Assembly: GCF_000003195.3 (NCBI RefSeq)
Contig: NC_012873.2
Location: 64,737,615-64,801,614 of the forward strand
DNA length: 64,000 nt
Source of the DNA: Sorghum bicolor
Lineage: Eukaryota; Streptophyta; Magnoliopsida; Poales; Poaceae
Direction: 5' to 3'
In this document: in pieces, positions 16,960 through 60,595 of the stretch
Position numbering within the stretch: the stretch's first letter is position 1
Layout: each line of letters starts with the position of its first letter
The notes under the pieces: generated by a model
Seen by the model: the letters and a program-made list of their open reading frames with translations, nothing else
Databases searched by the model: none
Told to the model about the DNA's origin: nothing
Program-made: the position numbers and the translations under genes

Positions 16960-17917
16960 TATTTGTTTTTTGTATTCCATCTAAACAAACAGAGAATATA
17001 TATAATAGGCATCACATATATGCCATCAACAACACATATATATTACAGACATCACGTACATATCACAAACGTCATTGTACCACCATCATCCTACCACCAA
17101 CACATGCATCCTAAGTTATTCATGTATATCCATGTTATATGCTATGTAACATTGTAGTATCTAGGCTCAACAGCTCAACAATACATGTTCAGAAGACAAA
17201 AGACAGCTAAGACATAAGTTGTTCAAAAAGACAAGTCGTTGCCGTCCATGTATTCTCGTTGTCCATGCCGTCACCATAGATGTCCTCACTAACATGAGAT
17301 GAACTAGCTGTAAAAACAGATAGTATATTGTAAGTATGAGTTCGACTACAAAATTTCTATAGATTAAAAGGGTAACCTACTCATTATTTTAAAAAAGGGT
17401 AACCTACTTATTATCTTAAAAAAAAGGTAACCTACTCATTCTATTCCATTGCATGGAATTGTTCTCCAACTGTTTTGTACGAACTGAGTCTTATGTATTT
17501 GAGTGATTCTCCATCTAGTAAAAAAGTTTGAAATATTACTAAATGAACTGATTATAGAGAAGGATAAAGAGCAAATACATGAGTATGTTTTTCATTCTTA
17601 CTAATCCTAGTGTTCTGTACAATACGAGCTACTGAACCAAATTATGTAGGACCTCGTATTCAGCCAAATCATGCAGGATCTCATCTTTGCATTTTCCACT
17701 GTAAAACACGGTTACAGGAACTGACTAGCAATCATTAGAGTTAAAAAAGAAGACAGTATTGTGCAAAAGATCACTTAGAAATAGGTATAGAGAATATCAC
17801 ATCTCCTTTGAAAATAAAAAATCCATTACAACGAAAATACAAGGCCAAACACAAAGATCAAACCTGAGCAGATTTTTAAGCATTCATGATGCTCTCCACA
17901 GCAATACATCATCTCTG
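16960..17917. other. left interior of the CACTA element
   Basis: The DNA is AT-rich. The short stretch 17225-17285 (minus strand, GATGACGG/GACAACGAG-like) resembles the end of a CACTA antisense gene but has no clear ORF. The gypsy insertion site follows. Confidence 0.3.
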
Positions 17918-20900
17918 TGTAACACTCTCGTGTTAAGCGAACTAAAACATGACATGTCATCATGAGCATTTCATAGTCTATTGTTAAGTAAACCCTGATG
18001 CATTAACCTAAAATAAGTTTATTTTGGATGAATGTGTTTAGGGATTTAAAGTGTGTTTAATTTATGTATGGATGCTTGTTTTGGAGTTTAAAAACCTTGG
18101 GTGAAAGTTTTCCGAGAAGCTTAAGGGGGGGGAAACCCTAATTTCAAAACCCTAGATTTACCCCCTTTTGTGCAATTCAAAAACCAAGAAAAATTTGAAG
18201 TTGAGTTCAAAAGCAAAGTTGTAGATCTTGTCAAGATGTACAACTTTGGTGTTTTGAGTTTTTGAAGATTCAGTACAAAATTCAAAGTAATTTTGAAAAT
18301 ACAGATTTCCGGAAAGTGTCCCCTTTTCTAATTTAAATCTCCAATTCAAAATCTGTTTGGAATTTTGAAAATGGGTCAACATGAAAGTTGTAGAGCTTGA
18401 ATAGTTGAACAACTTTCATGTTGGAAGTTTTTCAAGTTGTTGTGTAAAATCAAAAGTAATTTCTGAAATTCTGTTTTGCCCCAATTCAAAAATTTGGACT
18501 TAAGCTTGAATTTCAAACTGTTTGGCTCAAATTCATCCCTTTCCATTTCAAATCTGTCTTTGGTCATTAAAGATGTTTTGTAGCTCACAAAATTTTGTAC
18601 AACTTTTATTTTGATGAAATTTTGACTTCTATTCAAAGTTTGGTTGCATTCCACAAAAAGACAGAAAGGGTATTTTGGGGAAGAGGGGGATAAGCTCGGT
18701 CCCTGTTCATGGCGGTGGACCGCCGAGCTGGGATCGGCGTTGCCAGCGCGTGAGCCGCCGTTTCACCCCATCCTAGCGCGTGTTCACGTCCGTGACGATG
18801 TGGAGCAGCTGCTGGCAACCAGAGGCGCGACGTGCCCTTCTCTTCTGCGAGCACCGACTGCTTTTCCGCCACCGGAGCACCAAGGAGCAGTACCCCGTCC
18901 TCATCCAAATTGGCCGTGCTCAATCCTCCTCGCATCAAATTGAGCCGTCCACGATGTTCGCTATCTCCTTGCGCATCTCCAGAACCCACCTTTCTGCTCC
19001 CTTTCGCACCTGAGCGTCGGAATTCATCGTTTTCCTCCTCGCCGGAGTAAATCGCCGCCGAGCTCGAGTCTTCCGTGGTCAGCCCATCCGGGCAACTTTC
19101 TGCTCTCTCTTTCTCTCGTCTTTGTTTTGTCATGACCTTGTGATGCTCATCGGCTCGCTCTTTTCTTCTTTGCTTCACAGCTGTCGTCGGGACATCGTCT
19201 CCTTCGTCGGAGCTCGCCGCCGGAGTCACTGGTCGCGTGGACGAGCAAACCCCGACTGTTCTCCGCTCCTTCTCTCTGCGTCATCACACCCAGGGTGAGA
19301 CGCCAATGCTTCCTGACCTCTCCATTCTTTCTCTACTAGCCTAGAGCCACCGGCGTAAGCACCACCGCGGCCATGTCCGCCGCCGCTCGTGGCCAGACCT
19401 CGCTAGAGCGATAGAGTGCGGGTGTTCTAGCTCGTTTGGTTGCGGGTTGCTTGCTGGTACTCGTGCTCGTCTCATTCTGGCTCGGGGTGACCGGAGTTGG
19501 CCGGCGTAACCCACGCCACCGCGCTCTGCCGCGCTCTGGACGGCCGGAGTGTCGAGGACCTCGTGTTTGTAAAGATAAGAAAGGGGAGGGGTTTGATTGC
19601 AAAGCCGTAGACTCATGTGAATAGTAGCCTGGTCTGCGGGTTGGTTGCTAAGAAAGCCGAGGGCTTTTCTGCAAAACTGCCAGCGCGCGCGGGGGAAGGC
19701 CGGCTGGGCCAAGTTTCACGCGAGCTGGGCCGAGCTTCTGGGCCGCAGTGGCACAGTAGCGTTTTCTTTTTCTTTTTCTGCAGTTTTTGAGTTATGTTTG
19801 ATTTTGTATAATAAATCTTTTGCTGGTCCAAAAATTTGAAAAATTTTTGTATAGCTTACATAAAATGGATAGAGTCTAAGAAAAATGTTAGGTTTGATTT
19901 TCTGATAATTTTCATGTATACATAAATTGCCTTTGTTTATTAATGAATAAACCTTCCATGATTTTTAGTAAATTATGGGTATATCCAAAAATCATGAAAT
20001 TTAATATGTGATCTTGTGTTAATATTATTTAGCTTCATGATTAATTTCAGCTCTGTTTGATAAAGTATGCTCTGTCTCTTAATAAAGCTATTTAAAAATA
20101 ATTATAAAACAAATAGAAATAATTAATCCCTTTAGGATTTGGGTGATATTTTGGATTGTTTGACAACCATGGTTACTTAGCATGATATGCTCCCTGGTTA
20201 TGGTTTATTTCATGTAAATAATCCTTGTGATACGTTGAGTCCATAACCTTGTTTAATAAAAATAATAAAATTGATTTAGCAATAACCCATGCTTTGATAG
20301 CTAGATTAATTTGTTTCTTTACCATGAAGGTAAATTGTACTCGAGATAGTCATGTTTATTGTTGTCATCCAAGAACATGTAACCTGTCTTTATCATGCCA
20401 TGAGTATATCATAATCATGCATATGCACTTTTACGTATAGAATACGCTCCGGAAGAGTCTGATTCCCAGTGGGTTTCTTCCGAGTTTGTGGATCCTTCGA
20501 GTGTTGTTGAGTTGCCGAACGTCCCTTCCGGTCAAGGCAAGCCCCGGACATTAAACCCTATCCTTGTATTTTCATAAAGTTATTTATATCACTTGAGTTA
20601 ATATGATGCATTAGGTGAATAGGAGTTGAGTGGATCCTATTTGCTGCATTATCTACCTTGATGATTTCCATATTAACCTTGATACCTGCTTTATGAAAAT
20701 GCTTAGTATGCTTAGCCATGCTTATTAGATAGGTTTTCAAATGAGAAAGTTTGAAGGGTTGCTGTGGAATACTTTTATGGTTAATGATGTTTAACTTGAG
20801 ACCGGTCGGTGGACTTGCTTTAAGAATGGAGTCTTAAAGTAGTGTCTCCAACTGTGTCGATTAAGGACCGTACCGTTGTTGGCCTGTTGTGATTGAGACC

Positions 20901-21946
20901 TTTGAGTACAGCCCACATGCGGCGGTAAGCCTTACCTATAGCTATTCCGATACTTGAGAACGGCTAACCGCGTACTGGGAGTGGAGAGATGGCGAGAGTA
21001 GCGTGTACCCACCTTACGGATCTGAGATGACCGGGAAACGTCTAGATTGGCTGTAGGATGGTGGTGTACTGTACTCTCGGGTGACGCTGGACCCGTTCTT
21101 GTATGGGAGGATCTATAGAAAAGGTTGACATATGCAAGATTAAGTTCTACATATGTCGTGTGGTACTGAATCCCCAGCTGGGTTTAATCGATTCGAATCG
21201 CCGTGTTTCCTCGGATATGGAGCCTCAATCCTCACCCCATCATCGTAGTAATCAGTGAAATTTTTGGTATAAGAAAGAGGTGATTTGCTTATGAAAGTTG
21301 GATAATGATCTTGGTTAGTTATAAATGATAATCTTGAGTAAAATTTGAAAGTAGGCTTTACTCTTAGTAAGCTTTTGTGCAAAAGAAATACTTGATCTTG
21401 ATTAAGTCTTACCTTGAATCCCTATAGCCTGCATACCTGAGTCTCCACCTCTTTTATAGTCGGTTAAGTCTTGTTGAGTACTTTTGTACTCAGGGTTTTA
21501 TTAACCCATGTTGCAGGTGAATATCTTGATTATCCTTTTGATGGTCATGGTTATTTTACTCTTGTGGAGGAGAGTGATGATGATGAACCTGATGTGTGAC
21601 CTTGGGCAAGTAAAAACTTGTTGTGTGATCTATGGTTTATGTAATATAAAGTTCCGAAGCTTTTATGTATCAAATACTTATGGTTTTGTAAGCTATGAAC
21701 GTAAATTTCCAATCTATGTTATGTAACCTTTCCGCTTTTACTCTGATTTCTCTTATCTATGAAATGTTGTAATACTGTGATGCTTGATGAGGGAATTCCT
21801 GAAAGGATTGTTACGTGGATGATTCGGGTTTCCCGAGGACACCCGACAGACTTCTTGAGTCATTTGGAACTCATGCACGTCGATCAGAAGTCTTTGGGAC
21901 AATGATGTGTGCATGTGGGCCATTTAATTCAAGAGGTTCTGCCACA
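17918..21946 (+). repeat. 5' LTR
   Basis: It is 4029 bp, offset from the 3' LTR by exactly 9824 bp with no indels. Substitutions were seen at 18132 (G/A against 27956), 18373 (G/T against 28197), 19128 (T/C against 28952) and 19187 (T/C against 29011). The interior has an AT-rich start, a GC-rich block at 18690-19740 and an AT-rich 3' half. It also contains a possible spliced reading frame. Confidence 0.95.
20443..21599 (+). CDS. putative spliced acidic short protein inside the LTR
   Basis: Two open segments join in frame. The first, 20443-20536, follows a possible acceptor (GTATAG at 20440) and translates with EESDSQWVSSEFVDPSSVVE and ends PSGQ. A donor CAAG|GCAAGC fits the GC-AG class. The acceptor TTGCAG at 21511-21516 leads to the second segment, 21517-21599, with EYLDYPFDGHGYFTLVEESD and an acidic end before TGA. 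The split codon becomes Gly. The upstream exon and start codon were not found. The same structure is in the 3' LTR (30267-31423). The sequence looks protein-like but no family is recognised. It is tentative. Confidence 0.35.
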
Positions 21947-21948
21947 GC

Positions 21949-21960
21949 TGGTATCAGAGC
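21949..21960 (+). other. primer binding site, initiator tRNA-Met
   Basis: TGGTATCAGAGC begins two bases after the 5' LTR. It is the complement of the 3' end of plant initiator tRNA-Met including CCA, the standard primer for many plant gypsy and copia elements. Confidence 0.9.
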
Positions 21961-22407
21961 AGGTTTCCCTTAGAAAGTATAGCAGTATTCGGTTTTGAAA
22001 ACTTCAAAAGCTTTTGAGTCAAACCAAATTTCAAATTAGTTTGAGTTCAAATTGCTTCTAAGCTTGTCTTATGCTTCTAACTTGTCTCAGTTCATTCTTT
22101 AGACTTATCCTTCTATCTAAATGGATATGTTCTTAGTATAATTATGGTGATATTTATATACAAGGAACGATGCTTATAATGTTATAATATTGCCCTATTT
22201 ATGAAAAGAACGTTTATGCACTTTTATATCAAGTGCCTAACTTAAAGTTAATTATTTGTTTGATGTATGCTTGGTTCGTAAGTACGTTTCATGCATCATT
22301 ATTGATAACATGTAATTAACTTTCCTCCTTAAAGTTGTTAATAATTAGAGGTAATATGTCCATCTAATTGTAAAACTCTATCCTTTAACCTTGGAACATA
22401 TATAGTT

Positions 22408-22437
22408 CTAATATTCAAAATAAAAATATTTTGGCAG
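22408..22437 (+). promoter_or_regulatory. candidate splice acceptor directly before the accessory ORF
   Basis: A CTAAT branch-like motif at 22408-22412 precedes a T/A-rich stretch and TTTTGGCAG, whose AG (22436-22437) abuts the ATG. A leader spliced here would place the H3-like ORF first on the mRNA. It is read from sequence only. Confidence 0.45.
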
Positions 22438-22905
22438 ATGGCTCGTACCCGCCTAACCGCCCGCAAGTCCACCGGAGGTCGTGTTCCCAGGCACCAGTTG
22501 GCATCAAGGGATCCGCCACCCTCCGATAGCAGTGACAGCAGCACTGACAACTCCAGCGACGGAAACGGGAGTGACACCAGCGGAGGTCCTCCTTCGCCAA
22601 GGACCTACAGGCTTATGAAAAATGATCTGCGTCTGATGCTCACTGACAACATCAATATGGAAGTTCAGCTGTACCATATGGCGGGGTATGTGGTCACTCT
22701 TGAGGCCTATGCCAACACCCTCCATGAGGAAGTGCACCAGCTGCAGGATGCTCTCAACCCACCCGAGGCTCCTGAAGCAGCAGAGGAAGGACCAGTTGTC
22801 ATCCAAGTGGATAGTGATACTTCTGAGGATGAAGCAGAAGAACCAGGAACCCCCACTCCAGATGAGGGTGTTACCACCAGTGAGTCGGATATGGATGACG
22901 ACTAG
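22438..22905 (+). CDS. retrotransposon accessory protein with histone H3 N-terminal tail mimic
   Basis: The ORF is 155 aa, ATG to TAG, separate from gag and in a different frame. Residues 2-22 read ARTRLTARKSTGG then RVPRHQLA, matching the H3 tail at 16 of 21 positions. ARKS around H3 K9/S10 is kept, while K4, K14, K18 and K23 become R, R, H and R. No histone fold follows. Instead there is a Ser/Asp-rich linker (25-53), a probable helical/coiled-coil segment (about 55-106), VVIQV at 120-124 followed by DSDTSEDE (SUMO-interaction-like), and an acidic C-terminus. The only lysines are residue 10 (H3 K9) and residue 61. I recognise no named family. A role as a histone mimic binding H3K9 writers or readers is inference. 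Confidence 0.8.
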   Translation: MARTRLTARKSTGGRVPRHQLASRDPPPSDSSDSSTDNSSDGNGSDTSGGPPSPRTYRLMKNDLRLMLTDNINMEVQLYHMAGYVVTLEAYANTLHEEVHQLQDALNPPEAPEAAEEGPVVIQVDSDTSEDEAEEPGTPTPDEGVTTSESDMDDD

Positions 22906-23128: not shown

Positions 23129-26100
23129 ATGTCTGCTAACAACCATGGAGCTAGTTCGTCCCAGGGTGGGGATGATTTTCCTAATGCACCACCAGTTCCA
23201 CCCTCTTTGGCTGATGCAATTGCAGCATTGGTCAATGCAACAACTCTGTTAGCACAAAATCAGAATGCTGGTCAGCGTGGCCGTGGTCGCCATAACAGAG
23301 AAGAAACCACATATGTTGACTTCACAGATACTCGTCCCCCAGTTTTCACAAAAGCTGATGAACCTCTTGAAGCTGAGGATTGGCTTCGCACTATGGAGCA
23401 AAAGTTCAGTCTCATCAACTGTACTGAAACCCAGAAGCCAGTTTTCGCCGCTCAGCAGCTGAGAGGAGCAGCAGGGGTTTGGTGGGAAAACTTACTGGCT
23501 GTTCAACCAGCCCGTCACCGAATCACTTGGGGAGAATTCAAGGAAGCCTTCAGGGCTCATTACATTCCCAAGGGAGTTATGAAAATGAAGCTCGAAGAGT
23601 TCTTAGCTCTCCGTCAGGGGGATGACTCAGTCATACAGTATATTGGAAAGTTTAATCATCTGTCCCAATATGCAATTGAGCAAGTCAACACTGATGAAAA
23701 GAAGAAGGATTGTTTCATGAGAGGCTTGAATACAAAGCTTCAGCTGATGATGGCATCGTGTGGCAACATATCTTATCATGAGGCAGTAAACATCGCCATC
23801 TCCAGTGAAGAAAAGAATCGCAAACATAAGGAGGCTAAGAAGAAGAAGGGGTTTGTCTCAGGGTCTGGATCATCTGGCGGCAACAAGAAGCGTCAGAGGC
23901 TTGTATATCATCCAGCTCAGCAGTTCCGCCCAGCTTATCGTCCTTCTTATCAGCCGCCTCAGCAGCAGAATATGCAGAGGAGTTTTGCAAGGCCGACAAT
24001 GCCGTTCAATGTTCAACGTCAGCCAAATGTTCCTGCCATTCGACCGCCAGTGCCACAAGCTGCAAACAACCCTTGTTACAATTGTGGGAAGAGTGGACAT
24101 TTTTCTCGTGAATGTCCATATCCAAGGCAAAATGTTCCAAATGTCAATGCACCAAGGCCAGTTGGAAATCAGCAAGCAAATCAGAACAAAGGTCAGGCCC
24201 AGAATCAACAGAAGGGTAAGGGTACTCCGAAAACAGGAAGGGTTTTCCACACTCAAGTTGAAGCTATACCTGAGGGAGAGCCAGTGATGCTTGGTATGTT
24301 CCCTGTTGCCCAACACCCAGCACTTACACTTTTTGATTCTGGAGCATCACATACTTTCATGAATAGAGCATTTGCGGAAAAGTATAATATACCTATTGGT
24401 GCAACCAAAGATGAGTTCTTTATACAGTCACCTGGGGGTCGACTATGCACTAAAGAAATGGTACATCAGGTGCCAATAGACTTGGGTGGATATATATTTC
24501 CAACATCCATGATAGTGTTAAAAGATCCAAGTGTAGATGTGATTTTGGGTATGAACTGGATGAGCCAGAGAGGTGCAGTTATAGACACCTTAAATAGAAC
24601 TATCAGGGTCAACTTACCTAATAGCAAGTCTCAACTTCTTATCCATCTTCCTACCCTTAAGAGAGCAGTTGAGCAAGTGTGTGCTATCTCTGTCAAGGAA
24701 ATCAAGGATATTCCAGTGGTCTGTGAGTTTCCTGATGTGTTTCCAGAAGATTTACCGGGTCTGCCACCTGATCGTGATGTGGAGTTTGAGATAGAACTCA
24801 AACCAGGGACAGCACCAATATCTAGAAGAGCTTATAGAATGCCACCAAAAGAATTAGCAGAATTGAAAACTCAGTTGCAAGAATTGATGGATAAAGGTTT
24901 CATTCGACCTAGTTCATCACCATGGGGTTGTCCGGCAATCTTTGTGAAGAAAAAGGACAATACCTTGAGGTTATGTGTGGACTATCGTCCTTTGAATGAG
25001 GTAACAATCAAGAATAAGTATCCTTTGCCCCGTATTGATCTTCTCTTTGATCAACTAACTGGTGCTAAGGTATTTTCAAAGATAGACTTGAGATCGGGGT
25101 ACCATCAAATTAAGATTAAACCAAAAGATGTTCCAAAAACGGCATTCACTACCAGATATGGCTTGTATGAATATCTGGTCATGTCTTTTGGTCTGACAAA
25201 TGCCCCAGCACATTTTATGTATCTGATGAATTCAGTGTTCATGCCAGAGTTAGATAAGTTCGTGGTGGTATTCATTGATGACATTCTCATCTATTCCAAA
25301 ACTAAAGAAGAGCATGAAGAGCATCTCAGGATAGTGTTGGCTCGCCTGAGAGAACATCAGTTATATGCTAAGTTTAGCAAATGTGAATTTTGGATAGATG
25401 AAGTTCAATTTTTGGGTCATGTCCTGTCAGCTGAAGGTGTTGCAGTAGATCCAAGCAAAGTTCAAGAAGTTCTTGACTGGAAGTCACCAACTTCAGTACA
25501 TCAAGTTCGGAGTTTCTTAGGATTAGCGGGGTATTATCGCAGGTTTATCCCTGACTTCTCCAAGATCTCTAAACCAATGACAACACTGCTGAAGAATGAT
25601 ACCAAGTTTGTGTGGTCATCCGAGTGTGAAGAAGCTTTTCGGACTTTGAAAAAGTTGTTGACCACTGCACCAGTGCTAGCTCAACCTGATATTGAAAAAT
25701 CTTTTGATGTGTATTGTGATGCTTCAGGCAAAGGCATTGGGTGTGTACTAATGCAAGAAGGCAGAGTCATTGCATATGCTTCACGACAACTTAAGCGTCA
25801 TGAAGAGCATTATCCAACACATGATCTAGAGTTGGCAGCTGTAGTCCATGCTCTGAAGATTTGGCGACACTATCTGTTGGGTAATACTTGTCACATATAC
25901 ACTGATCATAAGAGTTTGAAATATATCTTTACTCAATCAGAGTTGAATATGCGTCAGAGAAGATGGTTAGAACTGATAAAAGATTATGATATTGAAGTAC
26001 ACTATCACCCAGGTAAAGCCAATGTAGTGGCAGATGCACTCAGTCGAAAGACTCATTGCAATTGTCTGGAAGTTAAGCCGATAAACCTTACCTTGTGTTA

Positions 26101-27613
26101 TGAATTTGAGAAGTTAAGTCTTGAAATAATTCCACAAGGAAGTCTTGCAAATATGACAGTTCAGTCATCTATCAAAGATCAGATTATTACAGCTCAGAAA
26201 GAAAATAAGGGTATGAGCTTTTTGAAAGAAAAGATTCAGTCTGAGCAGAATTCCAAGTTCAGAATAGATGAAGCTGGAGTGATTTGGTTCAAGGATCGTT
26301 TAGTAGTTCCAAAAGTTCCTGAGCTTAGAAAACGAATTCTTGATGAAGCTCATGCAACAAGACTTTCAATCCATCCAGGCAGTAACAAGATGTATCATGA
26401 TTTGAAACAAAGATTCTGGTGGACTAAGATGAAGCTTGAAATTGCTAGTTATGTGGCTAGATGCGATACTTGTCAAAAAGTGAAAGCAGTTCATCTTAGG
26501 TCTGCTGGAGAATTGCAACCATTGCCAATTCCATCTTGGAAGTGGGATGACATCAGTATGGACTTCATAGTGGGTTTACCTAGAACATTGAAAGGGTTTG
26601 ATTCCATATGGGTCATTGTTGATCGTCTGACCAAATCAGCTCATTTCATTCCCGTAAGAAAGAAGTATCGAGCCTCCATCTATGCTAAGATATACTTTAA
26701 CAGAATTGTAAGTTTACATGGTATTCCAAAGACTATCGTATCTGATAGAGGGACACAGTTTGTAAATGCTTTCTGGAAGCATCTGCATAAGTCTTTGGGT
26801 ACTAAACTTTTGCATAGTACAGCTTATCATCCACAGACTGGAGGACAGACTGAAAGAGTCAATCAGATCTTAGAAGATATGCTAAGATCTTGTGTGCTCA
26901 GTTATTCAGAGAAATGGGATGAATGTTTGCCATTAGCAGAATTCTCTTACAATAATAGTTATCAAGAAAGCATTAAGATGGCACCATTCGAAGCTCTATA
27001 TGGCAGAAGGTGCAGGACACCTTTGAATTGGTCAGAACCTGGAGAACATAGTCTCTTCGGGGTTGACTTAGTCAAAGAAACCGAAGAGAAGGTCAAGATC
27101 ATTCGAGATAACATGAAGATAGCGCAGTCCAGGCAAAAGAGTTATGCTGATAAGAGACGTCGATCTCTTAGCTTTGAGGTTGGTGATTATGTATACCTCA
27201 AAGTGTCACCTATGAAAGGAGTCACTCGTTTTGGAGTAAAAGGAAAATTGGCACCTCGATATATAGGTCCATATCAAATCCTTGAAAGATGTGGAAAGGT
27301 GGCATATCGTCTAGATTTACCACCACAGTTGTTATCAGTACACAATGTGTTCCATGTCTCTCAGTTGAAGAAATGTCTTCAAGTGCCTGATCATATCATT
27401 CATGTTGAAGAAATTGAGTTAAAGCCTGATCTGACATATTCAGAGTATCCTATCAAGATTCTAGATCAAAAAGATCGAGTCACTCGTAGAAGAACTATCA
27501 AATATTACAAGGTGCAATGGAATCAACATACCGAAGATGAAGCCACGTGGGAATCCGAAGAGTTTCTCTTAGAACGTTTTCCTGAGTTTCTTTCTTCTGT
27601 CTTATCCTTGTAA
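23129..27613 (+). CDS. intact Gag-Pol polyprotein with C-terminal chromodomain
   Basis: The single ORF is 1494 aa. Gag comes first ([12 protein letters not shown] ... [10 protein letters not shown]). The zinc knuckle is C316-x2-C319-x4-H324-x4-C329, and the protease has DSGAS at 403-407. RT has LCVDYRPLN from 615 and FIDD at 715-718. RNase H has D864 and D926 and ends near DALSRK. Integrase has H1075-x6-H1082-x29-C1112-x2-C1115 and the catalytic triad D1145, D1206, E1242 (35-residue D-E spacing). GPY/F lies near 1380 and a chromodomain at about 1436-1487. In the chromodomain two aromatic-cage positions are kept (Y1440, W1464) and the third is H1467. No stop or frameshift is seen, so the enzyme set looks functional. 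Confidence 0.97.
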
Positions 27614-27741: not shown

Positions 27742-30700
27742 TGTAACACTCTCGTGTTAAGCGAACTAAAACATGACATGTCATCATGAGCATTTCATAG
27801 TCTATTGTTAAGTAAACCCTGATGCATTAACCTAAAATAAGTTTATTTTGGATGAATGTGTTTAGGGATTTAAAGTGTGTTTAATTTATGTATGGATGCT
27901 TGTTTTGGAGTTTAAAAACCTTGGGTGAAAGTTTTCCGAGAAGCTTAAGGGGGGGAAAACCCTAATTTCAAAACCCTAGATTTACCCCCTTTTGTGCAAT
28001 TCAAAAACCAAGAAAAATTTGAAGTTGAGTTCAAAAGCAAAGTTGTAGATCTTGTCAAGATGTACAACTTTGGTGTTTTGAGTTTTTGAAGATTCAGTAC
28101 AAAATTCAAAGTAATTTTGAAAATACAGATTTCCGGAAAGTGTCCCCTTTTCTAATTTAAATCTCCAATTCAAAATCTGTTTGGAATTTTGAAAATTGGT
28201 CAACATGAAAGTTGTAGAGCTTGAATAGTTGAACAACTTTCATGTTGGAAGTTTTTCAAGTTGTTGTGTAAAATCAAAAGTAATTTCTGAAATTCTGTTT
28301 TGCCCCAATTCAAAAATTTGGACTTAAGCTTGAATTTCAAACTGTTTGGCTCAAATTCATCCCTTTCCATTTCAAATCTGTCTTTGGTCATTAAAGATGT
28401 TTTGTAGCTCACAAAATTTTGTACAACTTTTATTTTGATGAAATTTTGACTTCTATTCAAAGTTTGGTTGCATTCCACAAAAAGACAGAAAGGGTATTTT
28501 GGGGAAGAGGGGGATAAGCTCGGTCCCTGTTCATGGCGGTGGACCGCCGAGCTGGGATCGGCGTTGCCAGCGCGTGAGCCGCCGTTTCACCCCATCCTAG
28601 CGCGTGTTCACGTCCGTGACGATGTGGAGCAGCTGCTGGCAACCAGAGGCGCGACGTGCCCTTCTCTTCTGCGAGCACCGACTGCTTTTCCGCCACCGGA
28701 GCACCAAGGAGCAGTACCCCGTCCTCATCCAAATTGGCCGTGCTCAATCCTCCTCGCATCAAATTGAGCCGTCCACGATGTTCGCTATCTCCTTGCGCAT
28801 CTCCAGAACCCACCTTTCTGCTCCCTTTCGCACCTGAGCGTCGGAATTCATCGTTTTCCTCCTCGCCGGAGTAAATCGCCGCCGAGCTCGAGTCTTCCGT
28901 GGTCAGCCCATCCGGGCAACTTTCTGCTCTCTCTTTCTCTCGTCTTTGTTTCGTCATGACCTTGTGATGCTCATCGGCTCGCTCTTTTCTTCTTTGCTTC
29001 ACAGCTGTCGCCGGGACATCGTCTCCTTCGTCGGAGCTCGCCGCCGGAGTCACTGGTCGCGTGGACGAGCAAACCCCGACTGTTCTCCGCTCCTTCTCTC
29101 TGCGTCATCACACCCAGGGTGAGACGCCAATGCTTCCTGACCTCTCCATTCTTTCTCTACTAGCCTAGAGCCACCGGCGTAAGCACCACCGCGGCCATGT
29201 CCGCCGCCGCTCGTGGCCAGACCTCGCTAGAGCGATAGAGTGCGGGTGTTCTAGCTCGTTTGGTTGCGGGTTGCTTGCTGGTACTCGTGCTCGTCTCATT
29301 CTGGCTCGGGGTGACCGGAGTTGGCCGGCGTAACCCACGCCACCGCGCTCTGCCGCGCTCTGGACGGCCGGAGTGTCGAGGACCTCGTGTTTGTAAAGAT
29401 AAGAAAGGGGAGGGGTTTGATTGCAAAGCCGTAGACTCATGTGAATAGTAGCCTGGTCTGCGGGTTGGTTGCTAAGAAAGCCGAGGGCTTTTCTGCAAAA
29501 CTGCCAGCGCGCGCGGGGGAAGGCCGGCTGGGCCAAGTTTCACGCGAGCTGGGCCGAGCTTCTGGGCCGCAGTGGCACAGTAGCGTTTTCTTTTTCTTTT
29601 TCTGCAGTTTTTGAGTTATGTTTGATTTTGTATAATAAATCTTTTGCTGGTCCAAAAATTTGAAAAATTTTTGTATAGCTTACATAAAATGGATAGAGTC
29701 TAAGAAAAATGTTAGGTTTGATTTTCTGATAATTTTCATGTATACATAAATTGCCTTTGTTTATTAATGAATAAACCTTCCATGATTTTTAGTAAATTAT
29801 GGGTATATCCAAAAATCATGAAATTTAATATGTGATCTTGTGTTAATATTATTTAGCTTCATGATTAATTTCAGCTCTGTTTGATAAAGTATGCTCTGTC
29901 TCTTAATAAAGCTATTTAAAAATAATTATAAAACAAATAGAAATAATTAATCCCTTTAGGATTTGGGTGATATTTTGGATTGTTTGACAACCATGGTTAC
30001 TTAGCATGATATGCTCCCTGGTTATGGTTTATTTCATGTAAATAATCCTTGTGATACGTTGAGTCCATAACCTTGTTTAATAAAAATAATAAAATTGATT
30101 TAGCAATAACCCATGCTTTGATAGCTAGATTAATTTGTTTCTTTACCATGAAGGTAAATTGTACTCGAGATAGTCATGTTTATTGTTGTCATCCAAGAAC
30201 ATGTAACCTGTCTTTATCATGCCATGAGTATATCATAATCATGCATATGCACTTTTACGTATAGAATACGCTCCGGAAGAGTCTGATTCCCAGTGGGTTT
30301 CTTCCGAGTTTGTGGATCCTTCGAGTGTTGTTGAGTTGCCGAACGTCCCTTCCGGTCAAGGCAAGCCCCGGACATTAAACCCTATCCTTGTATTTTCATA
30401 AAGTTATTTATATCACTTGAGTTAATATGATGCATTAGGTGAATAGGAGTTGAGTGGATCCTATTTGCTGCATTATCTACCTTGATGATTTCCATATTAA
30501 CCTTGATACCTGCTTTATGAAAATGCTTAGTATGCTTAGCCATGCTTATTAGATAGGTTTTCAAATGAGAAAGTTTGAAGGGTTGCTGTGGAATACTTTT
30601 ATGGTTAATGATGTTTAACTTGAGACCGGTCGGTGGACTTGCTTTAAGAATGGAGTCTTAAAGTAGTGTCTCCAACTGTGTCGATTAAGGACCGTACCGT

Positions 30701-31770
30701 TGTTGGCCTGTTGTGATTGAGACCTTTGAGTACAGCCCACATGCGGCGGTAAGCCTTACCTATAGCTATTCCGATACTTGAGAACGGCTAACCGCGTACT
30801 GGGAGTGGAGAGATGGCGAGAGTAGCGTGTACCCACCTTACGGATCTGAGATGACCGGGAAACGTCTAGATTGGCTGTAGGATGGTGGTGTACTGTACTC
30901 TCGGGTGACGCTGGACCCGTTCTTGTATGGGAGGATCTATAGAAAAGGTTGACATATGCAAGATTAAGTTCTACATATGTCGTGTGGTACTGAATCCCCA
31001 GCTGGGTTTAATCGATTCGAATCGCCGTGTTTCCTCGGATATGGAGCCTCAATCCTCACCCCATCATCGTAGTAATCAGTGAAATTTTTGGTATAAGAAA
31101 GAGGTGATTTGCTTATGAAAGTTGGATAATGATCTTGGTTAGTTATAAATGATAATCTTGAGTAAAATTTGAAAGTAGGCTTTACTCTTAGTAAGCTTTT
31201 GTGCAAAAGAAATACTTGATCTTGATTAAGTCTTACCTTGAATCCCTATAGCCTGCATACCTGAGTCTCCACCTCTTTTATAGTCGGTTAAGTCTTGTTG
31301 AGTACTTTTGTACTCAGGGTTTTATTAACCCATGTTGCAGGTGAATATCTTGATTATCCTTTTGATGGTCATGGTTATTTTACTCTTGTGGAGGAGAGTG
31401 ATGATGATGAACCTGATGTGTGACCTTGGGCAAGTAAAAACTTGTTGTGTGATCTATGGTTTATGTAATATAAAGTTCCGAAGCTTTTATGTATCAAATA
31501 CTTATGGTTTTGTAAGCTATGAACGTAAATTTCCAATCTATGTTATGTAACCTTTCCGCTTTTACTCTGATTTCTCTTATCTATGAAATGTTGTAATACT
31601 GTGATGCTTGATGAGGGAATTCCTGAAAGGATTGTTACGTGGATGATTCGGGTTTCCCGAGGACACCCGACAGACTTCTTGAGTCATTTGGAACTCATGC
31701 ACGTCGATCAGAAGTCTTTGGGACAATGATGTGTGCATGTGGGCCATTTAATTCAAGAGGTTCTGCCACA
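27742..31770 (+). repeat. 3' LTR
   Basis: It is 4029 bp and near identical to the 5' LTR, with the four substitutions listed there. It ends TCTGCCACA directly before the CTCTG duplication. The putative spliced reading frame is repeated at 30267-31423. Confidence 0.95.
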
Positions 31771-31775
31771 CTCTG

Positions 31776-53956: not shown

Positions 53957-56143
53957 TTATGTCCCTAGGCCCTTGATGGTATCATTGAGCAAGCCACAAA
54001 TTTCCTTAGCCAGATCATGCCACCGCATTTGTGTTTTCATCTCTCCATCAAACTGCTTCCTCCACCTGGTTTCAATCAATCTGCCATTTTTTCTCCATAG
54101 TAGTGACAGCCCCTTCTCCAGTGACAACCCCGCCAATTCATTCATTTTCCAGTACTCACGAAGCACCTCGGTGACCACTGGCATCTTGGTTGCTGCATCT
54201 CGGGCCTCAAGCACCTCTGTTACCACTGGCGTCTTGGTTGCTGCATCTCGGGCCTCTCGAGCCACAGTGTTGACAGAGCCCCATGATTTGGCACTGAGAT
54301 CATGCAAGAGGCGGTCGTGCGCGGTGGCGGATTTCTCCGGCGCCGAGTGCAGGAACTTGCTCCTGAAGCGCGTCAGCTTGTAGGACACATTGGCTTCGTT
54401 GATGCGCGGGGAGACGGAGTCCCTGATGGAGTCGAACAGCGCGCCCGCGTCGATGGGGAGCGGGGATCGCCCGGTGCGCTCGCGGAAGAAGGCGGCTGCG
54501 GCGAGAAGCGTGACCTCCTCGGCGTCGCTCCATCTTTTGGGATAGTTAGGGGCGACGCCATGGCATCCGCCGTCCGAGGGTTGGAGTCCCTGAACGTCGC
54601 CGCGGCCTAAGTCGACGGCGACGCCCGTGGATTCGGGACTCTGGACATCTTCGTGCCCTCCGTCGACGTCCGACCAGAGCGTGGCCGCCGCCGCAGCAGC
54701 AGCTGCTGCAGCGAGCGTGACCACGGTGCTCTCTGTGGATATGCGGAGCCTGCGGGAGGGAGAGCCGCATGGGCTAGAGCTTGGGTCCAGGTGGCCGTCG
54801 CCCATGCCGAGCAGAGGGCTGAGCGACCGCTTCTTCGAACTGTGAGAGGAAGGAGGCGTGTGTGCCGCGTTGGCGTCCATGGAGAATGCAGATGACCGCT
54901 CCGACAGCATCGGCGCGTCGATGCGTGGCGAGAGTGCGGGCAAGGGCGCGCGCTGTGTGGTCAGGCGTCGCTCGTCGAGGCAAGGAAGCGTGGGCGCCGC
55001 GTCGGTGTCCATGGACGATGCTGATGACCGCTCGGACGGCGACGGCATGTCGAGGCGTGGCGAGAGTGCGGGCATGGGCGCGCGCTCTGTTATCAGGCGT
55101 CGCTCATCGGGGCAAGGAGGCGTGGGCGTCGCGTCGGCGTCCATGGAGCAATAGGAGCATGCGGATGACTGCTCGGACGGCGACGGCGCGTCGAGGCGTG
55201 GCGAGAGTGCAGGCATGGGTGCGCCCTCTGTAATCAGCCGTCGTTCGTCGTGGTAAGGAAGCGCGGGCGCCCCGCCGGCGCCGATGGAGGATGCAGATGA
55301 CCGCTCGGACGGCACCGGCGCGTCGAGGCATGGCGGGGGTGCGGGCATGGGCGAGCGCTCTGTGATCAGGCGTCGCTCGTCGCCGTAGCTCTCGTTAGCT
55401 TCTTGGTCGCACGAGTCATCCTCCGGAAGGGGCACGACGTCGAGCGCACCCCACACTCTGGTGGACAGGTCATGCACGCGGCGTTCGTGCGTGGTAATGG
55501 AACTCCCCGGCGCACCGCAAGAGAACTTGCTCTCGAATCGCATCAGCTTGGAGTACACCATGGCCTCGTCGAAGTGCGGGGAGACGGAATCCCTGATGGA
55601 GTCGAACAGCGAGCCCGCGTCCAGGCGGAGCGGGGGTCGTCCGGTGCGCTCGCGGAAGGCGGCGGCGGCGGCGAGCAGCTTGACCTCGTCCGCATCGCTC
55701 CAGAGACTCTGAGCGGCGCCATGGTCTACGTCGACGGCGACGCGCACAGCTCCGAGCCTTTCGAGGTCGCCGTTGTCTCCGTCGGGGCGGGCGCTGGCGT
55801 CGGACCCACGCAAGGCCTTCGCCGCGTTGAGGTCGAGCACTAGTCCGGCAGTCTCCGCGGACTCGCGGAGCGTGCGCTTGAGCTCGCTCCTGCTTGAAGG
55901 GGAGCCCAGGGGACTAGGGTTGGGGCCCCGTTGGTTGCCGCCGCCCACGCGGGGCTGGGGACCGGACGAGGGCTTCTTCCATCTGCGCCTGGGAGAGAAG
56001 AGGGGCGTGTGCGCCGGGTCGGTAGCCACGGTGGATGCCGACGGCTGTTCGGAGGGCATCGGCCCGGCGTGGAGCGTGGTGCGTGGGTGGCCGGATAGTC
56101 CGATGGGCGATGGGGGGTGGTGAACTGGTGCTGGTGGGTTCAA
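53957..56143 (-). CDS. GeBP/DUF573-type DNA-binding protein with duplicated domain
   Basis: The single-exon ORF is 728 aa; a later start at Met29 (MPSEQPSAS) is also possible and matches the start of its neighbour. It has two DUF573 domains (about 147-233 and 537-623), each with WSDA.EV.LLAAA..FRERTGR, LFDSIRDSVSP, SKFxxxAP and a final LS..WG. Between them four units of 44-47 residues begin DERRLITE/DERRLTTQ at 255, 299, 346 and 390. A 16-residue segment (ARDAATK.PVVTEVL) is repeated at 631-661. The C-terminus (EYWKMNE ... KGLSLLWRKNGRL ... LAKEICGLL) is the family's coiled-coil end. GeBP proteins are plant transcriptional regulators linked to leaf cell fate and cytokinin response. The layout suggests fusion of tandem copies. 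An Ala run (478-487) is present. Confidence 0.85.
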   Translation of the reverse strand: MNPPAPVHHPPSPIGLSGHPRTTLHAGPMPSEQPSASTVATDPAHTPLFSPRRRWKKPSSGPQPRVGGGNQRGPNPSPLGSPSSRSELKRTLRESAETAGLVLDLNAAKALRGSDASARPDGDNGDLERLGAVRVAVDVDHGAAQSLWSDADEVKLLAAAAAFRERTGRPPLRLDAGSLFDSIRDSVSPHFDEAMVYSKLMRFESKFSCGAPGSSITTHERRVHDLSTRVWGALDVVPLPEDDSCDQEANESYGDERRLITERSPMPAPPPCLDAPVPSERSSASSIGAGGAPALPYHDERRLITEGAPMPALSPRLDAPSPSEQSSACSYCSMDADATPTPPCPDERRLITERAPMPALSPRLDMPSPSERSSASSMDTDAAPTLPCLDERRLTTQRAPLPALSPRIDAPMLSERSSAFSMDANAAHTPPSSHSSKKRSLSPLLGMGDGHLDPSSSPCGSPSRRLRISTESTVVTLAAAAAAAAAATLWSDVDGGHEDVQSPESTGVAVDLGRGDVQGLQPSDGGCHGVAPNYPKRWSDAEEVTLLAAAAFFRERTGRSPLPIDAGALFDSIRDSVSPRINEANVSYKLTRFRSKFLHSAPEKSATAHDRLLHDLSAKSWGSVNTVAREARDAATKTPVVTEVLEARDAATKMPVVTEVLREYWKMNELAGLSLEKGLSLLWRKNGRLIETRWRKQFDGEMKTQMRWHDLAKEICGLLNDTIKGLGT

Positions 56144-58416: not shown

Positions 58417-59343
58417 CTAAGGGCCGAGGCCTTTGATGGCATCAGTGAGCAAGCCGCAGACTTCCTTAGCCAGATCATGCCGCCGCATCTGAGATTGCAT
58501 CTCTTGATCAAGCTGCTGCCTCCATTTGGTTTCAATAAGTCTGCCCTCTTTTTTCCCCAGTAGTGACAGGCCTTTCTCAAGCGACACCCCTGCCATGGCT
58601 CGCTCATTCGTTTTCCAGTACTCGCCGAGCACCTCGGTGACCACCGGCATCATGGCTGCCGCATCAGGGACAGCACGTCGCTCGCCGACGTCCGAGTCTT
58701 CCTCGGAAGAGGGCACGACGCCGACGCCCCATAGTACGGAGCACAGATCGCGCAGGCGACGGTCGCGCGGGCCGGAGGAGTGCTGGAACTTGCTCTTCAG
58801 GCGCTTAATCTTGTAGTACACCATGAACTGGTCGATGTGCGAGGAGATGGAGTCCCTAATGGACTCGAACAGCTCGGCCATGTCCGGGAGGCGCGGGGCT
58901 CGGCCGTTGCGCTCGCGGAAGGCAACGGCTGCGGTGAGGAGCGTGAACTCGTCGTCGTCGCTCCATTGTTTCTGGGCGGCGCCGCGGCCTCCACCGACGC
59001 GGGCGGCGGCGGCTCCGAGCATCCGGATGGCCCCGTCGCCTCCTTCGGCGCGGGCGCGCGGGCGTCTCCGCCTCTCGACGGCGCCGTCGCCCGCGTCGGA
59101 GCGGACGCCGGACGCGGACGCGCGCGCGGCGGCCGTGGCGAGCGCGAGCGCGGCGGACTCCGCAGATGTGCGGCGCCTGCGCTTAAGCTCGCTACCGCGG
59201 GCGGGGGAGCCGCGGGGGCTAGGGTTTGGGCTCGAGTTGCCGTCGCCCGTGCGGGGCAGCCGCTTCTTCGATCTGAGAGGGAAGGACGCCGCGGGCGCTG
59301 CGTCGGCGTCCATGGCAGATTCGGAAGGGCGTCCGGATGACAT
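58417..59343 (-). CDS. GeBP/DUF573-type DNA-binding protein, single domain
   Basis: The ORF extends to 59553 (378 aa), but the start at 59343 (MSSGRPSES, 308 aa) is preferred because it aligns with MPSEQPSAS of the neighbour and the upstream residues are low-complexity. Counting from that Met, the DUF573 domain covers about 126-206 (QWSDDDEFTLLTAAVAFRER ... LFESIRDSIS ... LRDLCSVLWG). The C-terminal EYWKTNE ... LEKGLSLLGKKEGRLIETKW ... LAKEVCGLL helix is highly similar to the 728-aa paralogue. A basic patch (KRRRR, RRRRPRAR) precedes the domain and may serve as nuclear signal. It is intronless, as usual for the family. Confidence 0.85.
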   Translation of the reverse strand: MSSGRPSESAMDADAAPAASFPLRSKKRLPRTGDGNSSPNPSPRGSPARGSELKRRRRTSAESAALALATAAARASASGVRSDAGDGAVERRRRPRARAEGGDGAIRMLGAAAARVGGGRGAAQKQWSDDDEFTLLTAAVAFRERNGRAPRLPDMAELFESIRDSISSHIDQFMVYYKIKRLKSKFQHSSGPRDRRLRDLCSVLWGVGVVPSSEEDSDVGERRAVPDAAAMMPVVTEVLGEYWKTNERAMAGVSLEKGLSLLGKKEGRLIETKWRQQLDQEMQSQMRRHDLAKEVCGLLTDAIKGLGP

Positions 59344-60595
59344 CGTCGCGGCACGACGTGCGGGGGACGCGGGGCGCGGCGTGCGGCGTGCGGCGTGGGC
59401 GGCGTGGCGTGGCGAGGGCGTGGACTCTGGCGATTGGGGTGGGGAAGTCGCCGGTAATCGATGACACCGCGTGTCTATTGCCGCTGCGCCGGCTAGTTGC
59501 ATTTCGTGATGTGCCCGCTTGCTTTGTTCGGCATTCGGCAACTTCGTCTTCACAAATCAGCCTCTCACGAACGTGAAGTGCTGAACTATGCGCCATTTTG
59601 TTACAAACAAAACAAGCAAAAACAGTCAACGATATGAAATTCTCTTTTTTTGCTACGTTGTAAGAAATAATAAAGTTAAAGTTATCTGGTCGTTTGTGTC
59701 AGCTACTCAGCTGTGAATGCACAGAGGCCCGTCGTTGGTTGTTTTTACAGCTTCCACCAAGGAATAGTTCATATGCTCTGAAAACCAAAACATTGGATGA
59801 CAGCGAAGACCAGAAACAAGCCCGGTGTATTCCGCTTAAAGCCTTAAATTGGCATGCATAGGGGATTTACCTGAGCTTTGCTAAAAAAGAAAAACATCAG
59901 GACGGCTTAGCCGGATTGCCCAATATGTTCCAGCAATAATATGATGCGCGTTTTGATCTTATTAATCCAGTCACCAAATACATGTGGAAAAAAAATATAT
60001 GGCAGTGTATGATCTTGTTTGGCAGAACTCTGGATATTACTTTTTTTTTTCTCAAACACCTCTCCACCATGGAATCTGAATCTATCACAAATGCAAATCT
60101 AAGGGCTCGATCCATGGATTTCATGAGCAACATAAGTTGGCCAAAATTTCTCATCATGTCACTAATTACAAAAAAAAAACAGTTTGCTCGTCCTTATTTT
60201 CTCATGTATTCTTCCCTGTCGTGACTCCGGCACGACTCTAGCCATTGTGCGCGCCGACCCTGGCCATGTGGACGTTGCCCTTGGCTGCTATAGTCCCGCC
60301 CTAGCCATGCTAGCCCTAGGTCGTGTTGGGCCACGTTGTGGTCACCACCGGCCACGCCCGGTCTCGCCAAGTCGTGCTGAGGTCACCGCCGGCCGCACTT
60401 GGCCTGCCGGCCATGCCAAACCTTGATGTGGAGGTATAAACCCCTATATCCTAATGGCTCGACATGGCCCGCACCATCGGAGGTGGTCCGACCACAAGAT
60501 GAAGACGTGCGGCGTACGACGCTGATCGACGTGCACCGCAAGACTACAAGAAGATATTATACCAATTACCAAATAAGATACTTTACTTGTAACTC
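59344..60595. other. GeBP-like gene promoter and intergenic DNA
   Basis: 59344-59640 is the likely leader and core promoter of the 308-aa gene. 60200-60430 is GC-rich with GGCCATG/GCCACG repeats of unknown origin. No gene was recognised. Confidence 0.35.

Follow-up and report, generated by a model that had tools for sequence, protein, structure and literature searches.

Additional 5' reading frames, designated ORF0 or 5'aORF, are described for Tekay elements of grasses, the named bearers including RIRE3, RIRE8, Retrosat2, Sorsat2/Sb7 and maize Tekay (PMC3485330, PMC11728184). The grass ORF0 is characterized there as being of unknown function (PMC3485330), and a dsRBD-like fold is in print for the maize and sorghum Sb7 proteins. 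The word histone does not occur in either article, and the available portions of several others (PMC7264820, PMC9289625, PMC6317226, PMC12786077, PMC8603533) make no mention of an H3-like reading frame. Listings from the open-licence PMC literature contained no paper treating the H3 likeness of grass ORF0 proteins as mimicry, the articles on extra ORFs being the only ones that bore on the subject. The H3 similarity of extra chromovirus reading frames is itself treated here as known. The abstract of Steinbauerova et al. 2011 reportedly notes partial similarity to histone H3 in some extra ORFs of Poaceae chromoviruses, and is said to note similarity to LONELY GUY in some elements. A passage of PMC9289625 agrees with the LONELY GUY statement. 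The first-pass annotation of the locus considered here knew of no described element-borne H3 mimic of its kind; that novelty is weakened by the published Tekay 5' ORFs and by the 2011 abstract.

Histone mimics include the C-terminus of influenza NS1 and the ARKT site of G9a. Both share with the protein described below a short H3-like peptide containing a modifiable lysine; they are, however, shorter and internal or C-terminal, whereas ORF0 presents a true N-terminus over 21 residues and belongs to a plant retrotransposon.

The window, a 64,000-nucleotide stretch of Sorghum bicolor DNA (NC_012873.2, positions 64,737,615 to 64,801,614, forward strand), holds an element that has several features in common with the grass Tekay ORF0 elements: long LTRs (about 3 kb or more), an ORF0 placed after the 5' LTR and ahead of gag-pol, and, in this ORF0, fast evolution and a long helix. 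Added here to those accounts are the exact boundaries of an H3 tail-like stretch, a pattern of substitution that spares K9 but turns K14 into R and K18 into H, evidence that the tail is under selection, and the finding that ORF0 proteins without the dsRBD-like domain carry it as well. Sb7/Sorsat2 is set beside the two families treated below (A and B) by description rather than by sequence alignment.

Structure of the Host Element

The element is a young chromovirus of the Ty3/gypsy type that carries ORF0 downstream of its 5' LTR and ahead of gag-pol; it is recognized by its paired LTRs, target-site duplication, primer-binding site, protease-RT-RNase H-integrase order and C-terminal chromodomain (Table 1). 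The primer-binding site is presumably of the initiator Met-tRNA type. The four mismatches between the LTRs correspond to an insertion age of about 0.04 My if 1.3e-8 substitutions per site and year are assumed. The name Tekay is taken from the first-pass annotation and from the published ORF0-bearing elements.

Table 1. Coordinates, in the window, of the chromovirus and of its accessory reading frame
Feature	Position	Strand	Basis
Target-site duplication CTCTG, left copy	17913..17917	+	flank sequences; right copy 31771-31775
5' LTR, 4029 bp, TG...CA ends	17918..21946	+	blastn of flanks; 4 mismatches to 3' LTR, no gaps
Primer-binding site TGGTATCAGAGC	21949..21960	+	sequence 3' of LTR
Candidate leader intron (GTAAGT donor-like at 22278; CAG acceptor-like ending directly before ORF0 ATG)	22278..22437	+	
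ORF0, 155 aa accessory protein	22438..22905	+	open reading frame and translation
H3 tail-like stretch, residues A1-A21	22441..22503	+	sequence match to H3; conservation across relatives
K9 codon of tail-like stretch	22465-22467	+	
Predicted single long helix, residues 54-106	22597..22755	+	AlphaFold2 model; partial homology to coil of other ORF0 types (local alignments)
VVIQVDSDTSEDE, acidic, near ORF0 C-terminus	22795..22833	+	translation
gag-pol ORF, 1494 aa: gag, CCHC, protease, RT, RNase H, integrase, chromodomain	23129..27613	+	Pfam
C-terminal chromodomain	27458..27592	+	Pfam E = 3.4e-6; alignment to MPP8
3' LTR, 4029 bp	27742..31770	+	blastn of flanks

Aligned to MPP8, the window chromodomain keeps the cage W and has H in place of the cage Y, while the first aromatic position falls outside the alignment. 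Type II chromodomains are defined as those without the first and usually the last cage aromatic (PMC6317226). The window chromodomain may be of this type, as judged from an alignment that covers two of the cage positions.

Splicing of the leader ahead of ORF0 is possible. The GTAAGT at the putative donor is kept in 26 of 28 copies of the window's own family (family A), and AG stands directly 5' of the ORF0 ATG in 27/28 family A copies and in 19/20 copies of family B; the unspliced leader contains 13 ATGs. GTAAGT is present 18 times in the window against 26 expected by chance, and a single occurrence carries little weight. Ahead of gag the window has TTTTTAAACAG, with an acceptor-like CAG adjoining the gag ATG.

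The H3 Tail-Like N-Terminus of ORF0

Translation of ORF0 starts with M-ARTRLTARKSTGGRVPRHQLA (in a longer stretch, M-ARTRLTARKSTGGRVPRHQLASRDPPP), and 16 of the 21 residues that follow the methionine are identical to residues 1-21 of histone H3. The likeness runs from residue 1 and leaves the K9 context TARKSTGG intact; the differences are K4R, Q5L, K14R, A15V and K18H, and ORF0 lacks both the K27 region and the histone fold. Among PDB chains the best phmmer match of ORF0 is histone H3 (E = 5.2e-5, query residues 2-25, the query having one additional residue before the Met). At a fixed position the probability of at least 16 matches is 6e-16 under an approximate Swiss-Prot background. When all six frames were compared with the H3 tail, the window itself reached 16 matching residues, whereas 20/20 first-order Markov resamples stopped at 7-9. 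A chance match, which the first-pass annotation had already judged very unlikely, is rejected on these figures. The same annotation had reported the 16/21 match at the exact N-terminus, and the alignment, phmmer and resamples bear this out; it had carried the feature over 22438..22513, of which the tail match stands but the end point does not, the tail-like stretch stopping at 22503.

Of the features of the H3 family, then, ORF0 has the N-terminal tail and not the fold. A Pfam search gives no histone match downstream of the tail, and the AlphaFold2 model of ORF0 contains one helix, with no regular structure before it and low confidence outside it. The earlier statement that no histone fold follows is thereby confirmed, and a degenerate histone gene is rejected as an explanation. 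Tail pLDDT is low in the models of both the window ORF0 (about 55) and the family B ORF0 (34-38), as expected of a free tail. The acidic stretch VVIQVDSDTSEDE resembles a SUMO-interacting motif; among family A copies it falls within another well conserved part of the protein (the 21-codon windows that start at residues 114-116), and in the relative P0007 it is duplicated in tandem.

Selection on the Tail in Family A

A search of the genome with ORF0 gave 1383 candidates, of which the best 150 were scored; 151 matches were reported and 150 listed. Among the 150 listed, matches extend over the whole ORF in 99 cases; the tail is included, with the match starting at residue 1 or 2, in 97 of the 99, and 95 of the 99 have no stop. 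Two additional listed matches are second pieces of ORF-wide copies, and the other 49 cover about residues 1-34 or less, most of them 1-26. Together with the 20/20 fetched copies of family B, the 97/99 count among the best 150 of 1383 rejects an accident specific to the window copy. Relatives lacking the tail, or a tail confined to this copy and decaying neutrally, had been named beforehand as the outcome that would point to accident; the outcome found was the opposite, in these copies and in 26 database proteins of several types.

Substitution rates were estimated by the Nei-Gojobori method from 47 family A copies, comprising the window and 46 others (L064 was dropped), in a set ranked by whole-ORF similarity and therefore poor in decayed copies. 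The dN/dS of the tail is 0.058 against 0.227 for residues 23-155, within which it rises from 0.132 (23-60) through 0.213 (61-110) to 0.327 (111-155); pS differs little between tail (0.135) and rest (0.150). In this family the tail is thus under purifying selection. Counted as distinct variants, the tail has 15 synonymous and 7 nonsynonymous changes and the rest 77 and 90, giving one-sided Fisher values for tail against rest of 0.042 for all variants, 0.029 for those seen at least twice and 0.042 for those seen at least three times, a contrast of moderate strength. Few parts of ORF0 are as constrained as the tail, but it does not stand alone, since 71 of 20000 random 21-codon sets drawn from the rest were as conserved as the tail in amino acids (19929 were more variable), as were, or more so, 3 of the 113 contiguous 21-codon windows of the rest. 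Fourteen of the 21 tail positions, K9 included, are invariant in the 47 copies, and the changes at the others are each carried by one or two copies: A1P and T11I by two, S10P and L20M by one, and L5Q, R14C and R17W by one or two.

A Second Accessory Protein with the Same Tail

The short matches of the genome search lead to a second family, B, sampled through 20 of the 49 (L009-L028), each found through its tail. All 20 copies carry the tail, with 1-3 differences from that of the window, but the protein behind it is another one; 9/20 frames are interrupted before they reach 200 aa. The long form of this ORF0 has 346 aa: after the tail come a domain with a possible dsRBD-like fold (about residues 37-123), a long helix that spans 161-303, and finally an acidic end. 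The dsRBD fold is alpha-beta-beta-beta-alpha. No dsRBD family appeared among the Pfam matches of family B ORF0 up to E = 1, and a profile built from the family B alignment gave 6 weak matches in the PDB, none of them a dsRBD. In comparison with the dsRBD proteins DRB7.2, DCL4 and HYL1, family B ORF0 is therefore without a Pfam dsRBD match, and the window ORF0 is without this domain. In copy L011, ORF0 precedes gag, protease, RT and integrase, which occupy separate frames.

K9 is unchanged in 20/20 family B copies, and R8H occurs in 2/20. The tail dN/dS is 0.56 in the 11 frame-open copies and 0.46 in all 20, values that result from the very low pS of the tail (0.070 and 0.065; the regions that follow have 0.30 and 0.24). 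Because the tail is conserved at synonymous sites too, dN/dS is uninformative in this family, and the low ratio across copies that had been proposed as a check is found, of the two families, within family A only. Choosing copies by their tail lowers amino-acid differences but should hardly affect synonymous ones, and the first 60 nt of family B ORF0 (nt 0-59) have the lowest divergence (0.031, 0.049) within about 2 kb. Constraint on the family B tail may thus lie partly at the DNA or RNA level. Age of the copies does not explain the synonymous conservation. Between the two families, the tail codons have pS 0.68 and pN 0.08, a dN/dS of about 0.05 near saturation, while representative tail peptides are identical at 20 of 21 residues.

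A further genome search, based on the database protein P0043, gave 3260 candidates; of the best 150, 149 matched in the coil, starting at residues 22-31 and so outside the tail, and one started at residue 1. Among the same best 150 of 3260, 103 have open frames 340-375 aa long, which is what a protein with the tail would measure. On such counts family B is abundant. One locus of the same genome (G000:C4:27028537-27028998) matches P0043, of the 194-aa type, over its residues 1-158 in a 173-aa frame, and possibly represents a third ORF0 type there.

ORF0 Types Among Database Proteins

Protein searches returned 12 matches, 39 matches and 120 listed of 683, and 150 listed proteins were examined. 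The tail is present in 26 of them, at a Met each time, a proportion that is no measure of how often the tail is missing. The remaining 124 comprise 3 whose first residue is tail residue 20, 27 that begin no more than 12 residues from the post-tail landmark, and 94 that have no landmark; since truncation is indistinguishable from absence, these 124 neither support nor contradict the tail. The idea that database proteins with internal starts lack the tail is rejected by P0015, which starts MPTLLWR and matches 302/310 residues of the ORF0 of family B copy L010, where the tail lies upstream in frame; the called starts of database proteins accordingly carry little information.

Several distinct ORF0 types bear the tail. 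A type of ~194 aa (e.g. P0038, P0043) has MARTK(L/R)TARKSAGGRAPRHRLA-like starts and no dsRBD-like domain, P0026 combines the tail MARRRLTAHKSTGGRVPRHQLA with a dsRBD-like domain, and P0009 has the tail MARTKQTARKSTGGRVPRHQLA, identical to H3 at 18/21 residues. Across the 26 tail proteins, which form related clusters so that the counts are not independent, A1, A7, K9, S10, G13, P16 and L20 are kept in 26/26 and T6 in 25/26, while K14 is R in 25/26 and K18 is H in 25/26; position 4 is K in 19 and R in 7, and R8, R2 and R17 are kept in 22, 20 and 16, respectively. When six representatives are compared in pairs, they share 14-20 of the 21 tail residues, and the tail is more alike than the locally aligned rest (27-62%) in 14 of 15 pairs; in the exceptional pair the tail stands at 67% and the rest at 81%. 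The Miscanthus gene model P0053 has an integrase piece ahead of the coil. A pattern scan of viral contigs, a collection that may omit records close to the genome of the window, gave 62 pattern stretches, none of them related.

Possible Origin and Function of the Tail

The constraint on the tail suggests that the element uses its copied H3 end on host chromatin machinery. In the proposed scheme, the N-terminus of a canonical histone H3 gene, from the start codon to about residue 21, would have been captured once, by an ancestral grass chromovirus of the Tekay type, and joined to a coiled-coil protein whose end is acidic; R14 and H18, common to the tail proteins, argue for a single capture, with P0009 nearest to H3. 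The sequence would since have been kept as a free H3 tail, K9 and its surroundings staying and the acetylatable K14 and K18 giving way to R and H. Met aminopeptidase removes a methionine that precedes alanine. Removal from ORF0 would expose A1-R2-T3, and N-terminal acetylation could change the exposed end. The processed protein, presumably nuclear, could offer the H3-tail machinery of the host a multimeric tail that is modifiable at K9 and not acetylatable at 14 and 18, and that in family A, family B and P0026 would also be without a methylatable lysine at position 4. As a bait, such a tail may engage H3K9 methyltransferases, H3K9 readers or both, either titrating these factors off the chromatin of the element or tethering the element's nucleoprotein to chromatin that holds them.

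The first-pass reading of the protein as a gypsy retrotransposon mimic of the H3 tail only is supported at the level of sequence. It is fairly probable that some H3-tail factor, the element's own or the host's, is engaged by the tail, and a K9 decoy or tether for writers or readers would be the most economical account; that a captured H3 N-terminus is kept specifically as a K9 tail mimic acting as bait for host K9 factors is put at an even chance. A more extended version is offered tentatively, namely that one capture gave a large grass chromovirus lineage a coiled-coil-displayed K9 decoy (closed to acetylation at 14 and 18, K4R in some types, joined to a dsRBD-like domain in one family) able to engage the H3K9-methylation and small-RNA arms of silencing, or replacing in targeting the methyl-lysine reading lost from type II chromodomains.

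The richness of the tail in R and K, the replacement of K14 by R, of K18 by H and in part of K4 by R, and the predicted nuclear location of published 5'aORFs (PMC11728184, in the available text) would also suit a basic N-terminus kept for nuclear localisation or for binding nucleic acid, such as the element's RNA, with the H3 likeness telling of origin only. This reading is considered unlikely: the non-basic A1, A7, S10, G13, P16 and L20 are the residues kept in all 26 tail proteins while the basic R2, R8 and R17 vary, and a localisation signal has no need to start at residue 1. Less likely again is a role within the element, in targeting or packaging, where the tail would be a ligand of the element's chromodomain or Gag, or would tether the integration complex to H3 readers. 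Both in the window and in L011, gag-pol does follow immediately after ORF0, the window chromodomain keeps the cage W with H at the last cage aromatic, and PMC6317226 describes type II chromodomains as having unidentified partners; a chromodomain without the full cage is not, however, expected to read K9me, and a Pfam search of the L011 integrase frame, in a gag-pol broken into several frames, found no chromodomain. Constraint at the nucleic-acid level, with the first 60 nt kept as a splice-acceptor context, translation start or packaging signal and the protein match a relic, would fit the divergence minimum and low pS at the start of family B ORF0 and the acceptor-like CAG before the ORF0 ATG. 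It is nevertheless judged improbable, as the family A tail has hardly any deficit in pS and the tails of A and B differ at most synonymous sites while encoding nearly the same peptide. Chance, or a neutral relic of a captured H3 fragment with no present function, would agree with the fast evolution of ORF0 overall (PMC3485330, available portion) but is largely refuted, its likelihood being very low given the odds of the match at a fixed position, the purifying selection, and the retention of the tail by ORF0 types whose remaining sequence is only partly shared.

If the host does read a tail of this kind, a group of transposons abundant in grasses would imitate the substrate of the pathway that silences it. 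Histone mimicry would then extend to plant transposons, the unexplained ORF0/5'aORF would gain a function, and a natural H3K9 tail that is non-acetylatable at 14 and 18 could serve as a probe of K9 writers and readers. A 25-residue peptide suffices to put the question of the tail to test.

Other Reading Frames in the Window

Outside the element, the window contains two ORFs with GeBP-like DNA-binding domains (53960-56143 and 58420-59553, both on the minus strand) and two adjacent DUF7036 ORFs (480-1001 and 1046-1573, likewise on the minus strand).
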